Origin: Chloroflexota bacterium
GTDB lineage: Bacteria; Chloroflexota; Anaerolineae; UBA1429
DNA length: 64,000 nt
Assembly (NCBI GenBank): GCA_012841405.1
Contig: DUUT01000073.1
Location: forward strand, 62,001-126,000
Direction: 5' to 3'
In this document: positions 45,661 to 61,060 of the stretch, in pieces
How the letters are laid out: each line of letters starts with the position of its first letter
Position numbering within the stretch: the stretch's first letter is position 1
The notes under the pieces: generated by a model
What the model was told of the DNA's origin: nothing
Databases searched by the model: none
Seen by the model: only the letters and a program-made list of their open reading frames with translations
Position numbers and translations under genes: made by a program

Positions 45661-46689
45661 TTACACGCGATGGCAGGCTACCCAGTGCCCATCGCCCACA
45701 TCGCGCCATTCGGGCTCGACGGTGGCACACATATCGATGCGCCACGGGCAGCGCGTCTGGAAGCGGCAGCCACTCGGCGGGTTCGCCGGGCTGGGCACAT
45801 CGCCCTCGAGAATGATGCGCTGGCGCTTGTCCTCCACTTGCGGGTCGGGGATGGGTACCGCTGAGAGCAGCGCCTTGGTATACGGGTGCAGTGGGTTCTC
45901 GTAGAGCTCCTGGCGCCCCGTCAGCTCGACGATCTTGCCGAGGTACATCACCGCCACGCGGTCACTAATGTGGCGCACCACCGACAGGTCGTGGGCGATA
46001 AACAGGTACGTCAACCCGAACTGCTCCTGCAGGTCCTCCAGCAGATTGATGATCTGCGCCTGGATCGACACATCCAGCGCCGAGATCGGCTCGTCGCAGA
46101 CGATGAACTCGGGCTGTACCGCCAGCGCTCGGGCGATGCCGATGCGCTGACGCTGGCCGCCGGAAAACTCGTGGGGATAGCGGTTCACAAAGTAGGGATT
46201 CAGGCCCACGATGCGCAGCAGCTCTTGGACGCGCTCGCGCCGCTCCTGGCGCGTCAGGAGGTTGTGCACCTCGAGCGGTTCGCCGATGATGTTGCCCACG
46301 GTCATGCGCGGGTTGAGGGAGGCGTACGGATCCTGAAAGATCATCTGCATGTTGCGCCGCATCCGCCGCAGTGCCTCGCCGCGCAGCTCCAGCAAGCTCT
46401 CCCCCTGGAAGCGCACATCGCCGCCCGTGGGGCGGTAGAGCTGCAAGATCGCTCGCCCCGTGGTCGATTTGCCACAGCCGCTCTCCCCCACGAGGCCGAG
46501 CGTCTCGCCGCGTCGGATCGAGAACGTGAGGCCATCCACGGCCTTGATGTCGCCGATGTGCCGCTGAAAGAGCACCCCCTGGGTGATGGGGAAGTACATG
46601 CGCAGATCCGTCACCTGGACGAGATCCTGGCCGTTCTCGGCGCCCATGGCGCCGGTTGCCGTGGTGTCAAGTGCGTTCGTGGCGCCCAT
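45661..46689 (-). CDS. oppF: Peptide ABC transporter ATPase OppF
   Basis: The 342-residue ATPase has Walker [13 protein letters not shown], signature [15 protein letters not shown], Walker [13 protein letters not shown], and the Opp/Dpp-specific C-terminal cysteine-rich tail ([15 protein letters not shown]) that may bind an Fe-S cluster. It energises peptide uptake with OppD. The ATG at 46689 shares one base with the oppD stop (TGATG) and GGGGAG lies upstream; the longer frame to 46821 is rejected. It is the last gene of the opp operon, followed by the hairpin at 45602-45629. Confidence 0.94.
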
Positions 46690-47678
46690 CAGCCTTGTCT
46701 CCCCTTCCCGTCTACCTCCACCCAACAAGCGATCTCGTGCGACGGTGCCACGGTCCGCAACGGCGGGTTCTCCTCCAGGCACCGGCCCACGCGGAATCGG
46801 CAGCGCGCATAGAACGGGCAACCCGGCGGCATCATCACGAGATCGGGGGGCAACCCTTCGATGGGCGTCAGCTTTTCGCGCCTCGTGGCATCGAGGCGCG
46901 GCAGCGAGCCCAGCAGCCCCAAGGAGTAGGGGTGGCGCGGGTTGGCATAGTACTCGCGCACCGTGGCGCGCTCGACGATATAGCCGGCGTACATCACCTG
47001 CACGCGATCCACCAGCCCAGCGACGATCCCCAGGTCGTGGGTGATCCAGATGATGGCCATCCCCAGCTCGCGCCGCAGCTCCTTGACGATATCAACGATC
47101 TGCGCCTGGATGGTGACGTCCAGCGCAGTGGTCGGCTCGTCAGCAATGAGCAGTTGGGGGTTGCACGACAGGGCCATGGCGATCATGACGCGCTGGCGCA
47201 TACCACCGGAGAACTGGTGGGGATAGCTATCCAGCCGCGAGCGCGCCTCGGGGATGTTGACCATCTCGAGGAGCTCGATGCTGCGCTCGCGCGCCTGGTC
47301 CTTGGTCATGCCCAGGTGCAACTCGAGTGCCTCGCCCAGTTGCTGGCCAATGGTCAGCACGGGGTTGAGCGACGTCATCGGGTCCTGAAAGACCATGGCG
47401 ATCTGGTTCCCGCGGACGTGACGCATCTCCTCTTCGGAGAGCTTGAGCAGGTCGCTCCCCTGAAAGAGCACCTCACCATCCGCGATGCGCCCGGGAGGCT
47501 CGGGGATCAGCCGCATCATCGAGAGCACGCTCACGCTCTTGCCGCAGCCGCTCTCCCCCACGATCCCCAGGGTCTCGCCCTCCTCAAGATCAAAGCTCAC
47601 CCCATTCACCGCATTGACGATGCCATCTTGGGTGAGGAACTGGGTACGCAGGTTCCGCACTTGGAGCAACGTCGCCAT
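46689..47678 (-). CDS. oppD: Peptide ABC transporter ATPase OppD
   Basis: The 329-residue ATPase has Walker [16 protein letters not shown], the Q-loop [11 protein letters not shown], signature [15 protein letters not shown], Walker [13 protein letters not shown] and the C-terminal [15 protein letters not shown] cysteine tail. It pairs with OppF. The gene lies between the second solute-binding protein gene and oppF with 42 and -1 base gaps, so it is in one transcript with the permeases. Confidence 0.94.
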
Positions 47679-47720
47679 CAGTGCAGCCTCCCTGCCATAG
47701 TACGTAGAATGCTCATGGTG

Positions 47721-49376
47721 CTACCTTTCGAGCGTAACGTGATGGAGCCACGGCGAGATCGCTCCTGTGGCCCGGTATCCCCGTACATGGGGCTTGACAA
47801 GCACATACACCACGCCGTGGGTCAGTGGGATCCAAGGCGCATCCTCAACGATTATCCGCTCCGCTTGGCGATAGAGCGCGGTACGGCGCTCCGGATCGTC
47901 CTCGATCCGCGCCTCCTCCAGCAAGCGATCTACCTCGGGGTTGGCGTACCCCATGTGGTTCTGCGAGCTGGCGCTATGGAACAAGAGATCGACAAAGTTC
48001 TGCGAGTCCGGAAAGTCGGCGATCCACCCAGCAGAAAAGAACGCGTAGCGGCACGCGTTCAGGTCCTGCAAAAAGTCGCTCCACTCGACCTGCTCCACCG
48101 TCGCCTCGATGCCCAGGTTCTCCTCGAGCATGCTGAGGATGGCGCGATCGAGCGTCGACAGGTACCCGCTCGTCCCGCTCACCGAGAGCACGATGGGCGG
48201 CATGGCGCCCTCGCCGCCGTAGCGTGACGACGCCAACAGCTCCCGGGCCCGGGCTGGATCGTAGGCCAGCCCCTCCAACGTCGGGTCGAAATCCGGCATG
48301 GCCGGCGGAAGGATCCCCTTGGCTGCGGTGGCCGTGCCCCGGAGAACCAGGTCGGCGATCTTGGTCCTGTCAATGGCGTGGGCGAACGCCTGGCGCACCG
48401 CCCGATCATCGAACGGTGGCTCGGTCACGTTGAAACCCAGGTACTGCACGCTGGGTTCCGCCCCCGTCACCAGCTCGCGCGACAACGGGTTCTCCGGATC
48501 CGTCACCCGCTCAACTTCTGACGGCACCACCTGCACGATGTCAAGCTCACCCGTCTCGTACATGGTGAGCGGATGCCCACCGCTCAGCACGTACTCGACG
48601 CGACGCACCGACGGCTTGTGGCCATAGAAGGCGTCGTTCGCCTCCAGGGCGATGAGATCGCGGCTGATGCTCGCCAGCTTGTAGGGCCCCGACCCATTGG
48701 GCCGCGTTATCCACGCGTCGCCCTGCGCTTCGATCTGCACGCGATCGACGACGAACGCCACCGGGTAGGTCAGCTTGGCGAGAAAGTAGGCCTTGGGAGC
48801 ATCGATGGTGATGCGCAGCGTGTGCTCATCCACGGCCTCCAGGCCACTGATACGCTCTGCCTGCCCCTGCATGACGGCGCGAGCGCCCACGATGTCGTCC
48901 AGATAGCTACTGGCCACCGGCGATCCCGTCTCGGGGCGACAGGCCCGCTCCATCGAGTACACCACGTCCTCGGCTGTGATCGCCCTACCGTCGTGAAAGG
49001 TCGCCTCTGGGCGCAGGTAAAAGGTGTACGATAGCCCGTCCTCGCTCACGACGTAGCGGCTCGCCACGTCGGGTACGACGTCGAGATCCTGGTCGAGGGA
49101 CACCAACCCGGCAAAGATGTGCACCACGTACTCGGCAGAGGTGCTATCCTGCACCAGGGCCGGGTCCAGGGTAGGCGGCAGCCCCCCAGAGATGCGCAGC
49201 GTCCCAGACGAGGAGGCCGTCCTTTCCACGGGGCGCGTCGCCGACGCTTGGGGCGGTGCTTCGGGCGCAATCCGCAAATAGTCATAGGCAAGATACGCGC
49301 CCAGGCCGCACGTGCCGGTAAGCACGCACAGCAACAGCAGGACGAACAGGATGATCAACCACGTCTTGCGCGTCAT
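47721..49376 (-). CDS. Solute-binding protein family 5, membrane-anchored
   Basis: The 551-residue peptide-binding protein starts with an uncleaved helix (RKTWLIILFVLLLLCVLTGT) followed by GLGAYLAYDY, with no lipobox, so it stays anchored by a membrane segment. The family 5 core has GLPPTLDPALVQDS, FYLRPEATFHDGRAITAEDVVYS and a late YFSAGW-like FFSAGWIADF segment. ATG 49376 is preferred to the GTG at 49403. It is the second such receptor in the operon; the first, at 51690, is frameshifted at its start. Ligand: probably oligopeptides. Confidence 0.9.
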   Translation of the reverse strand: MTRKTWLIILFVLLLLCVLTGTCGLGAYLAYDYLRIAPEAPPQASATRPVERTASSSGTLRISGGLPPTLDPALVQDSTSAEYVVHIFAGLVSLDQDLDVVPDVASRYVVSEDGLSYTFYLRPEATFHDGRAITAEDVVYSMERACRPETGSPVASSYLDDIVGARAVMQGQAERISGLEAVDEHTLRITIDAPKAYFLAKLTYPVAFVVDRVQIEAQGDAWITRPNGSGPYKLASISRDLIALEANDAFYGHKPSVRRVEYVLSGGHPLTMYETGELDIVQVVPSEVERVTDPENPLSRELVTGAEPSVQYLGFNVTEPPFDDRAVRQAFAHAIDRTKIADLVLRGTATAAKGILPPAMPDFDPTLEGLAYDPARARELLASSRYGGEGAMPPIVLSVSGTSGYLSTLDRAILSMLEENLGIEATVEQVEWSDFLQDLNACRYAFFSAGWIADFPDSQNFVDLLFHSASSQNHMGYANPEVDRLLEEARIEDDPERRTALYRQAERIIVEDAPWIPLTHGVVYVLVKPHVRGYRATGAISPWLHHVTLER

Positions 49377-49437
49377 AGGCGATGTCAGTGGGCGCTCCCG
49401 CACAGCCGCTCCCCGCCGGCCACCTCATGCGCAACGA

Positions 49438-50502
49438 TCATGACGTGCCCTTCATGCGCGGATCGAGCGCATCGCGCAGGCCGTCACCGAGAAAGTTGAA
49501 AGAAAACATGGTGATCGCCAGGGCGATGGCCGGGAACAACACCTGGTTCGGGTACGACCGGATGGCACGGGAGCCGTCCGAGATCATGGACCCCCAACTC
49601 GGCGTGGGGGGGTCCACCCCCAGCCCGATAAAGCTGAGGAATACCTCCGTACTGATGTGGGAAGGGATGTTGAGCGTCACAGCCACGAGGATCGGCCCAA
49701 TGATGTTGGGCAGGATGTGGCGCACGATGATGCGCAGATCCCGAGCGCCAATCATGCGCGACGCCTCGACGAACTCTTTTTCCTTCAGCGACAGGATCTG
49801 TCCGCGGGCCAGACGGGCAATACCCATCCACGCCGTCACCCCGATGCCCATAAAGATGAACAGCATGCCGCCGCCCTGCAGGCCCAAGAGCCGGTCGACC
49901 GCGCGGTTGATCTGGTTAAAGGTATAGGCGGCCGTGCCGGGATCCTGGTTACCGCCAAAGCTCGTCTTGAAGAACGCCATCAACAGGATGATGAGCAGCA
50001 TCGTGGGAAAGGCGTACATAATGTCCACGATGCGCATCATGATGTTGTCGACCGTGCCACCGTAATAGCCCGAGATGCAGCCATAGACCAAGCCGATGAT
50101 CAAGGCCGTCATGGCGCCCATAAAGCCCACCGGCAACGACACGCGAATGCCATAGATGATGCGGCTCAGGAGGTCGCGCCCCAGGTAATCCGCGCCGATG
50201 GGATAGATGTCACCGATCTGGGTGTACTGCTCCATATTGCCCGGCATGATGTCCGCCACCCACTGGGGCACCATGTGATTGAGCGCCGAATCCCCCTCGG
50301 CATAGTGGTACGGAGTCAACGCATCGGCAAAGACCCCCGCCAAGATGAGCAACAGCAGCAGTACAGCGCCGAGCACTGCAGCGCGGTTGCGCAGCAGACG
50401 GTGCCAGGCATCGAGCCACAGGTTGGCGGTGCGCTGCTGTCCCTCACCCTCGGCAGGGGTTACGCGCACGAGCCGCTGTGCGGCACGTTCTTGTTCAGAC
50501 AT
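49438..50502 (-). CDS. oppC: Peptide ABC transporter permease OppC
   Basis: The 354-residue protein has five to six predicted helices. The OppC N-terminal segment (WLDAWHRLLRNRAAVLGAVL) and the late EAA loop (VEASRMIGARDLRIIVRHIL) that contacts the ATPases are clear. A loop of about 40 residues with GNQDPGTAAYTFNQINRAVD is longer than in enteric OppC. It follows oppB with a 63-base gap. It forms the channel with OppB. Confidence 0.94.
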   Translation of the reverse strand: MSEQERAAQRLVRVTPAEGEGQQRTANLWLDAWHRLLRNRAAVLGAVLLLLLILAGVFADALTPYHYAEGDSALNHMVPQWVADIMPGNMEQYTQIGDIYPIGADYLGRDLLSRIIYGIRVSLPVGFMGAMTALIIGLVYGCISGYYGGTVDNIMMRIVDIMYAFPTMLLIILLMAFFKTSFGGNQDPGTAAYTFNQINRAVDRLLGLQGGGMLFIFMGIGVTAWMGIARLARGQILSLKEKEFVEASRMIGARDLRIIVRHILPNIIGPILVAVTLNIPSHISTEVFLSFIGLGVDPPTPSWGSMISDGSRAIRSYPNQVLFPAIALAITMFSFNFLGDGLRDALDPRMKGTS

Positions 50503-50565
50503 TGCGACTCTTCTCCTCGAGCAGGTTGCTTCACACGACGGGGCGAGGGACGCACCGTGCGCCGA

Positions 50566-51513
50566 TCACGTGAACTTGATCCTGGGGTCCAGGAACGCAT
50601 AGGTCAGATCCACGAGTAGGTTGGCGATCACGAGAAAAACAGCATAGAGCAGCACCGTGCCCATCACCACGGGATAGTCACGGTTGGTGATGCTGGTCAC
50701 AAAGTACTTGCCCAAGCCAGGGATGGCAAAAATCTGCTCGACCACAAAGGTGCCGGTCAGCAGGGCGGCGAACATCGGCCCCAGGATGGTCGCCACCGGT
50801 ATAAAGGCGTTCTTGAGAGCGTGGCGCACCATCACCATGCGCTCGCTCAGCCCCTTGGAGCGCGCTGTCCGGATATAGTCCTCGCGGATCACCTGCAGCA
50901 TGCTGGCACGCGTCAGGCGCGCGATGATGGCAGACTCGTGCAATCCTAGGGCAATCGCCGGCATGACGAGCTGCTCCGGCCTGCCCCAGCCCGCCACGGG
51001 GAACCACCCGAGCGTGAGGGCGAACACGAGGATGAACAGCGGCCCGAGAACGATGTTGGGGACCGAGACGCCAAAGATGGCGACCCCCATCGTGAGGTAA
51101 TCCCAGATGGTGTTCTGCTTCAGGGCGGCAATCACACCGAGGGGCACCCCCATCCCGACGCCGATGGCCAGGGCGGCGAGGCCTAGCGTCGCCGATACCG
51201 GCAGGTGCGCCGCAAAGATATCATTCACCGTACGGCCGCGGCTGGCGTAGGAGGGTCCAAAGTTGCCCTGCAGCAGCCCGGCGAACTCGCCGGAGGGGTT
51301 GCGCGTAAACCCCATATAGTCGGTGTACTGCTTCCAGAGGGGTTGGTCGAGGCCGTAGTGCTTGTTCAGATTGGCAACGATCTCGGCCGGCAGGGGTTTC
51401 TCGCGGTCAAACGGGCCCCCCGGGACGGCGTGAGCCAGAGCAAAGGTAACGATTGAGATAAAAAAGAGCACCGGGATCATCCACAGGACCCGGCGGACGA
51501 TGTAGCGTCCCAT
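50566..51513 (-). CDS. oppB: Peptide ABC transporter permease OppB
   Basis: The 315-residue membrane protein opens with MGRYIVRRVLWMIPVLFFIS, has the family GGPFDREKPL loop and the EAA loop DYIRTARSKGLSERMVMVRH, and ends with six predicted helices in total. AAGGAG four bases before the ATG at 51513 sets the start; the upstream frame to 51597 is not used. It lies 176 bases downstream of the first solute-binding gene; that gap carries a strong hairpin. Confidence 0.95.
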   Translation of the reverse strand: MGRYIVRRVLWMIPVLFFISIVTFALAHAVPGGPFDREKPLPAEIVANLNKHYGLDQPLWKQYTDYMGFTRNPSGEFAGLLQGNFGPSYASRGRTVNDIFAAHLPVSATLGLAALAIGVGMGVPLGVIAALKQNTIWDYLTMGVAIFGVSVPNIVLGPLFILVFALTLGWFPVAGWGRPEQLVMPAIALGLHESAIIARLTRASMLQVIREDYIRTARSKGLSERMVMVRHALKNAFIPVATILGPMFAALLTGTFVVEQIFAIPGLGKYFVTSITNRDYPVVMGTVLLYAVFLVIANLLVDLTYAFLDPRIKFT

Positions 51514-51622
51514 GCCACTCCTTCTCCTCAGCCAGCGGTCTTGCACGACGAACGGGGTAGGGCTGCACCGTTCATAAGCAGTGGCCCATTGTACCACAAA
51601 CCGGCGAATCGTACATAATGAG

Positions 51623-51689: not shown

Positions 51690-53344
51690 CTAGTGCGCCA
51701 ACACCTTCCACTTGTCAATGTGCTCACCGCCGAGCGGCGCATAGGAGCGCTCGACGTACGGCTTGGTGCACACGACGGATGTGTAGTAGTAGATGGGGAT
51801 GATGATCGCTTCGTCCACCGTGAGGATCTTTTCCGCCTCAAAGTACAGCGCCTGGCGCTCGTCGGGGTCAGAGGACGCGGCGGCATCCTCGACGGCCTTC
51901 ATATAGGCCTGCGCCCCGGGAGACGCGGGATCCCACTTGGGGTTGTTCTGGCTCTTGGTCGGGTGAAAGACCTCCAGCAGCCAGTTGTTGGCGTCCGGAT
52001 AGTCCGCACACCACCCGTTACGATAGATCTGCGGCGCATCCTCATCGAGGGTATCGAGGTAGACGGCCCACTCCTGGTTCGCCAGCTTGACCTCGACGCC
52101 AAGGTTTTCCTTCCAGCTCTGCTGCATGAACTCGGCGATCTTTTGGTGGCCTTCGCTGGTGTTGAACATCAGCGTCACTTCCGGCAGGCCCTGGCCGTCA
52201 GGATAGCCGGCCTCTGTAAGCAGCTCCTTCGCCTTGTCCGGGTCAAAGCTGATACCGACAAAGTCATCGTTGTCGGCCACGCTGCCAAAGATACCGGGGC
52301 ACGCCAGGCTCTTGGCCGGCCGCTGCTCGCCCTTGGTCACCGTGTCGATCAGCTTCTGCCGGTCGACGGCGTAGGAGAACGCCTGGCGCACGAGAGGATT
52401 GTCAAAGGGCGGCTTGGTGGTGTTAAAGCCATAGTAGTAGGTGCACAGGCTGGGGGCGATGTACAGCTCTTCCGAGAGCGTCGCGTCCGCCTTGATGCGG
52501 TCGATGTCATCCAGCGGCGCATTAGCGACATCGAGCTCGCCGTTCTCGTACATGGCGAACGCCGTCGAATCCTCGTTCACCATGAAGAAATTGACCTGCT
52601 CGATGCTGACGTCCTCAGCGTCATAGTACTCCGGGTTCTTCATCATGACCATGCGGTTCTCGTGCTCCCACGTGTCGAGCACGTAGGGGCCGTTGGTCCA
52701 GATGGTGCCCGGCTCGGTCCACGTGTCGCCGCCGGCCTCGATCGCCTCGCGCGGCTGCGGGCGGTTCACCCACATCCCAGCGATCCCCGGGAAGTACCCT
52801 GCGGCCTGCTCGAGGGTGAACTCGACGGTATAGTCGTCGATGGCGCGCACACCGATGCTGTCCAGGTCGGTGCTCTCACCCGTGTTCACGGCCTCGGCGT
52901 TCTTGATGATATAGTCCACGTAGGCATAGTCCGACGCGGTCTCGGGGTTGAGGGTGCGCTGGACGCCATACACGACGTCGTGCGCCGTCACCGGGCGCTG
53001 CTTGGTGACCTTTTTCGTGGCGGGGTCGTAATGCACCCAGCTGACGTCGTCGCGCATCTTGAACGTCCACGTCAGGCCGTCAGCAGAGGCACTCCACTCG
53101 GTGGCCAACTCGGGGATCACTTCCAGGGTCTCGTCGTCAAAGTCGGTGAGGCCCAGGAAGAGCAACTCGACGCACTGCACCGACGTGGTATCGGTCGAGA
53201 GCGCCGGGTCGATGGTCGGTGGCTCGGTGTACAGGTTATAATTCAGCTCCTTGGCCAGGGCTTGGCCGCGAGAGCACCAATGAGCACCGTCGTCACCAAT
53301 AGGACGATGCTCAGCAGCACGAGCAGCTGCTTGTTGCGCAACAT
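51690..53344 (-). CDS. Peptide-binding protein OppA-like, N-terminal frameshift
   Basis: The mature family 5 binding protein is intact: KELNYNLYTEPPTIDPALS, then VQCVELLFLGL through to the end at 51690. GTG at 53180 is internal, not the start. The true start is the ATG at 53344, with GGAGGAG five bases upstream, which opens a typical signal peptide (MLRNKQLLVLLSIVLLVTTV, then LIGALAA). That frame stops at 53243-53245. The mature part is in the frame reached by a loss of one base (or gain of two) near 53245-53275. Either the gene is a recent pseudogene or the base call there is wrong. It heads the opp operon. Confidence 0.88.
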
Positions 53345-53538
53345 CTTTTCTCCTCCGGTCAAACTGCTAATGTCGTTCGGCACTTCGGGACAGACGCTCG
53401 CGGTCCAGCCTCCCTCCTTTCACCACACAGGGCCCACCGCGCGGCGATACACGGCATTCCATCGACGCAGCAGGCTCCATGCACACGATCATAGCATCCG
53501 GGCGCACGACACGATACCGCGCCACTGGCATTGGGGGC

Positions 53539-60408: not shown

Positions 60409-61060
60409 CTATTCTCCTTTGTGGTGGGGATCTTGATCGTGCTCCGTTATCGCCCGAAGCACCCTGCAGGGATTTCCTACGGCAACGACATCCGGCGGCA
60501 GGTCTTTGGTGACAACGCTGCCCGCGCCGATGACGGTATTATCGCCGATGGTGACGCCGGGGACAATGATCACGCCCGCCCCCAACCAGCAGTTGCGCCC
60601 GATACGCACTGGTGCGTTGTACTGGTAGGCCTTTTCGCGCAAGTGAGGTGAAATCGGGTGCCCCGCTGTTGCCACCGTAACATGGGGGCCGAACTTGGTA
60701 TAGTCGCCCACATAGATGTGGGTGTCATCGACGAGCGTCAGACCAAAGTTGGCATAGATATTCCTGCCGAAATGCACATGGCGCCCACCCCAGTTGGCGT
60801 ACAGCGGCGGCTCGATATAGCAGCCCTCTCCGATCTCGGCGAACATCTCTCGTAGCAAGGCGTTACGCTGCTCCAGCTCGGAAGGTCGCGTGTGGTTGAA
60901 TGCGTAGAGCTTGTCGAGGTGTATGAGCTGTTCCTTCAGCAGCGCCTCATCCGTGGGGAGATAGAGTCGGCGGTGGCCACGGCAAAGCTGATCCCCTCAG
61001 CAGCGCCTCATCCGTGGGGAGATAGAGCTCCCCGCTATGCATTCTCTTGTGGATATCCAT
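60409..61060 (-). pseudogene. Maltose O-acetyltransferase-like gene broken by a 61-bp insertion
   Basis: The hexapeptide-repeat acetyltransferase is intact from REMFAEIGEGCYIEPPLYA (60855 down) to 60409, with the HVTVATAGHPIS motif and coenzyme A-binding repeats. The N-terminal half starts at ATG 61060 (MDIHKRMHSGELYLPTDEA) but runs to a stop at 60949 region because a 31-bp segment is repeated with a 61-bp period. Removing one period restores MHSGELYLPTDEALLKEQLI and joins LDKLYAFNHTRPSELEQR in frame. An ATG at 60858 gives a 149-residue truncated product that may still fold, but it lacks the N-terminal domain. Confidence 0.84.
60936..61027 (-). repeat. 31-bp direct repeat with 30-bp spacer in the acetyltransferase gene
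   Basis: Copies at 60936-60966 and 60997-61027 are identical over 31 bases. The 30 bases between them (60967-60996) have no counterpart in the expected gene. The 61-bp period is not a multiple of three, so the gene is frameshifted. Confidence 0.93.

Follow-up and report, generated by a model that had tools for sequence, protein, structure and literature searches.

Two described systems come closest to the present locus: the SBP_bac_5 family of solute-binding proteins (PF00496; OppA/DppA), and the release factor 2 gene (prfB) with its programmed +1 frameshift, in which a short 5′ frame ends at TGA and the remainder lies in another frame. The OppA gene analysed here, in a window of 64,000 nucleotides, shares with the former a full-length domain, two permeases and two ATPases encoded in the same operon, and a lipoprotein N-terminus in its orthologues; it differs in that the signal peptide and the mature part lie in different frames, in the present assembly only. 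The arrangement of a short TGA-terminated frame and a displaced remainder resembles prfB, a real example of which is found in the same genome; however, the OppA gene has no slippery stop signal, would need a shift in the opposite direction and is unsplit in relatives. This example (L116, G000:C225, 1282-2380), identified by its Pfam PCRF and RF-1 matches, carries the classical CTTTGAC; its shift is taken to be of the programmed +1 type, and the gene provided a control for the frame scan. Nothing on the present case was found in the literature.

The operon, from a Chloroflexota (Anaerolineae-like) bacterium, encodes an Opp/Dpp-type ABC transporter and is ordinary. The window lies on a contig of 130,886 bp (C234) in a draft genome of 4.0 Mb and 238 contigs, with an estimated contamination of 7.46%. 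The mature OppA matches PF00496 over profile positions 1-367 of 368 (E=5e-92; 309 bits, where the cut-off is 32.4), which assigns it to the SBP_bac_5 family. It shares the operon with permeases (BPD_transp_1, OppC_N), a second binding protein and ATPases (ABC_tran, oligo_HPY), all of which match their Pfam models and are unbroken at 45661-51597 (Table 1). Comparison with relatives, which covered 14.3 kb of the contig, found no further frame breaks; the two pairs that it flagged are forward frames, opposite to the genes.

Table 1. Coordinates of the OppA gene and its operon within the window
Feature	Position	Strand	Evidence or remark
Shine-Dalgarno region CCGGAGGAGAAAAG	53345..53358	-	before ATG 53344; GAGGAGGAAAG or similar at the same place in orthologues
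33-codon frame with signal peptide h-region, TGA stop at 53245-53243	53243..53344	-	orthologous N-termini
Frame break: lipobox glycine codon lacks one nucleotide; cysteine codon TGC 53276-53274 (in the mature frame) follows immediately	53274..53278	-	alignment with 10 orthologues
Mature OppA (SBP_bac_5), lipobox cysteine to stop, unbroken	51690..53276	-	PF00496 match
OppB-type permease (BPD_transp_1), intact	50566..51597	-	Pfam
OppC-type permease (BPD_transp_1 and OppC_N), intact	49438..50502	-	Pfam
Second family-5 solute-binding protein, intact; hydrophobic segment at the N-terminus	47721..49403	-	Pfam
OppD-type ATPase, intact	46689..47678	-	Pfam
OppF-type ATPase, intact	45661..46821	-	Pfam

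The OppA gene begins at an ATG with a good Shine-Dalgarno sequence in front, and its first frame reads MLRNKQLLVLLSIVLLVTTVLIGALAAKPWPRS* up to the TGA stop. The mature frame is open from just past TAG 53369 to the end of the gene at 51690, and holds no ATG, GTG or TTG between that stop codon and GTG 53180. The latter opens a frame of 496 residues, and the rare start codons ATT 53300 and CTG 53258 lie upstream in the mature frame. The remaining 500-odd codons are stop-free, with up to 80% identity to relatives. A codon-usage frame model, applied to the whole 130.9-kb contig, located the switch of frame unprompted (window 53260). The sequence-only reading had described a signal peptide ORF starting at 53344 behind a good ribosome binding site and stopping at 53243, a mature protein in another frame without a start codon upstream of 53180, and an otherwise intact gene and operon, all of which agree with the present analysis.

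Orthologues were collected from 60 related genomes and a species-level genome collection. The start, the hydrophobic signal segment and the lipobox cysteine share one frame in 36 of 39 distinct orthologues, including every one of the 13 at 65% identity or more, and a Shine-Dalgarno-like site is also present in nearly all of the one-frame orthologues. The nearest N-terminus, MLRNKLLLVLLAIAVVVPMVLSGCSKGEALAKELN, belongs to an orthologue of the same family (G002). Up to the lipobox glycine, the 5′ frame of the window matches it at 15 of 23 residues (MLRNK.LLVLL.I...V..VL.G), and from the cysteine onwards the mature frame matches it at 10 of 12 residues (CSRGQALAKELN / CSKGEALAKELN). This match in two frames to a single orthologue indicates that the split is not due to chance. 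DNA alignment with ten orthologues revealed a single-nucleotide gap in the glycine codon of the window, next to the cysteine codon, so that the size and the position of the break can be read directly from the alignment, and the earlier description of a single-base-type break was borne out. As the cysteine codon is kept in the mature frame, the DNA of the window lacks one nucleotide of the lipobox glycine codon, which places the break at about 53278-53276, between the signal helix and the lipid-carrying cysteine. The window possesses all elements of a lipoprotein N-terminus (start, n-region, hydrophobic segment and [LVI][ASTVI][GAS]C lipobox), but the cysteine and the start lie in different frames. 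The orthologue N-termini and the alignment at the cysteine identify the gene product as a lipoprotein; this, the location of the break at the lipobox and the intact orthologues in the same family and class are additions to the sequence-only reading.

We propose an ordinary Opp/Dpp operon in which the first solute-binding lipoprotein gene lacks one nucleotide at the lipobox; translated as it stands, this gene would yield a signal peptide fragment of 33 residues, and an exported binding protein would not be made. Regarding the origin of the break, we infer that a consensus or assembly error of the draft, or a minority variant that entered the consensus, is slightly likelier to account for the missing nucleotide than is a fixed mutation (probability roughly 0.58). 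The one-frame N-termini of the orthologues, the one-nucleotide gap at the glycine codon, the intact remaining codons, the 238-contig state and estimated contamination of the draft and three further unexplained breaks elsewhere in it are consistent with such an error. The slight lean comes from a survey with the codon-usage frame model, in which about 15% of the genome, sampled in stretches (599 kb), was compared with 704 kb of four relatives. The first-pass flags were noisy, and a break was accepted only if the first 60 nt or more of the coding signal were free of start codons. Five strong breaks were found in the draft, namely those of OppA, an acetyltransferase, an aldo/keto reductase and, less certainly, a GAF-domain gene, together with the release factor 2 control, leaving four unexplained; in the relatives the model flagged just three cases, all borderline at the threshold and none of them as strong. 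The excess of four against none is small: with an even spread of breaks across the 1303 kb, the chance of finding all four in the draft would be about 4-5%. Two of the draft's other breaks differ in type, being duplications, and the OppA site, which contains neither a homopolymer nor a repeat, is not where an error would typically be expected. The earlier statement that the break is either recent or an assembly error therefore stands, with a modest lean towards assembly or consensus error from the draft-genome context.

Less probable, yet to be taken seriously, is a real and recent one-nucleotide deletion in the sequenced population, which would make the first binding protein a very young pseudogene, while the second binding protein may keep the transporter working. 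That the site is single and lies outside any homopolymer or repeat accords with such a deletion, as do the presence in the operon of another binding protein that is intact and the single copy of the gene; a search of the genome for a further, intact copy found none. Viral contigs gave no exact 30-mer match, and plasmids gave only short distant matches. Against a deletion, the gene shows no decay elsewhere, so that the event, if real, would be very recent, and the closest genomes compared belong to other genera of the family, none being of the same species that could show fixation.

Programmed -1 recoding or transcriptional slippage, which would join the two frames and yield a regulated lipoprotein, is very improbable, although both halves look conserved and the cysteine-carrying frame is open upstream beyond the break. 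As the earlier reading had held, no X-XXY-YYZ slippery heptamer is found in 53375-53243, where the longest run is AAAA, and none of the 13 close orthologues has split frames. The shift would also have to occur exactly before the cysteine codon, where the tRNA paired with GGT would be unable to pair again with TGG in the -1 frame, and the only known type of programmed site found in the genome, that of release factor 2, does carry its signal, CTTTGAC. A homopolymer longer than four or a nearby simple repeat, as in phase-variable genes, was not found at the break, nor was a direct repeat of at least 12 nt in 53150-53500. The lack of a slippery heptamer, homopolymer or nearby repeat renders both recoding and phase variation unlikely, and programmed frameshifting, transcriptional slippage and phase variation were rejected on the sequence and the relatives together. 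Equally improbable is translation of the mature frame from an internal or rare start, giving a product that is cytoplasmic or exported otherwise. The 496-residue frame and the few rare start codons upstream would allow it, but GTG 53180 has no visible ribosome binding site in front of it and would lose the stretch TEPPT.DPAL.TDTTS conserved among relatives, and ATT or CTG would give no signal sequence; such starts were rejected accordingly. The least credible reading is an undescribed recoding at the lipobox, by which one gene would yield two products, a signal-peptide fragment and a binding protein with a lipid anchor.

The OppA gene, one nucleotide short at its lipid-attachment site, is thus most simply explained by a sequence error or a fresh mutation rather than by a new kind of gene, and as an ordinary feature it carries little biological weight. 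Automatic gene callers are likely to begin it at GTG 53180 or to label it a pseudogene, by which its lipoprotein nature would be lost. For isolated frame breaks in draft metagenome genomes, relatives and reads should be checked before a pseudogene is called.

The acetyltransferase gene (maltose-acetyltransferase-like, Mac and Hexapep; 60409-61060, minus strand) is broken by a 61-nt insertion at 60933-61027 of the window, which consists of two 34-nt direct copies around a filler of about 27-33 nt. The filler is identical to a stretch of an unrelated gene at another place in the genome (G000:C86:6743-6769), and the insertion represents either template-switch filler or a chimeric assembly join. 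In the aldo/keto reductase gene (L125, G000:C235, 17600-17639), an exact tandem duplication of 20 nt breaks the frame, and the Pfam profile continues from one frame to the other. The GAF-domain signalling gene (L122, G000:C231, 6710-10302) has a weakly receiver-like N-terminal part without an in-frame start codon, possibly a further frame break. In one of the other genomes (L020, G026:C308), an OppA-type binding domain shares its open frame with a protein-kinase-like region, as read by eye, and a hydrophobic segment, both of which precede it, an arrangement that may perhaps represent an extracellular peptide-sensing kinase.
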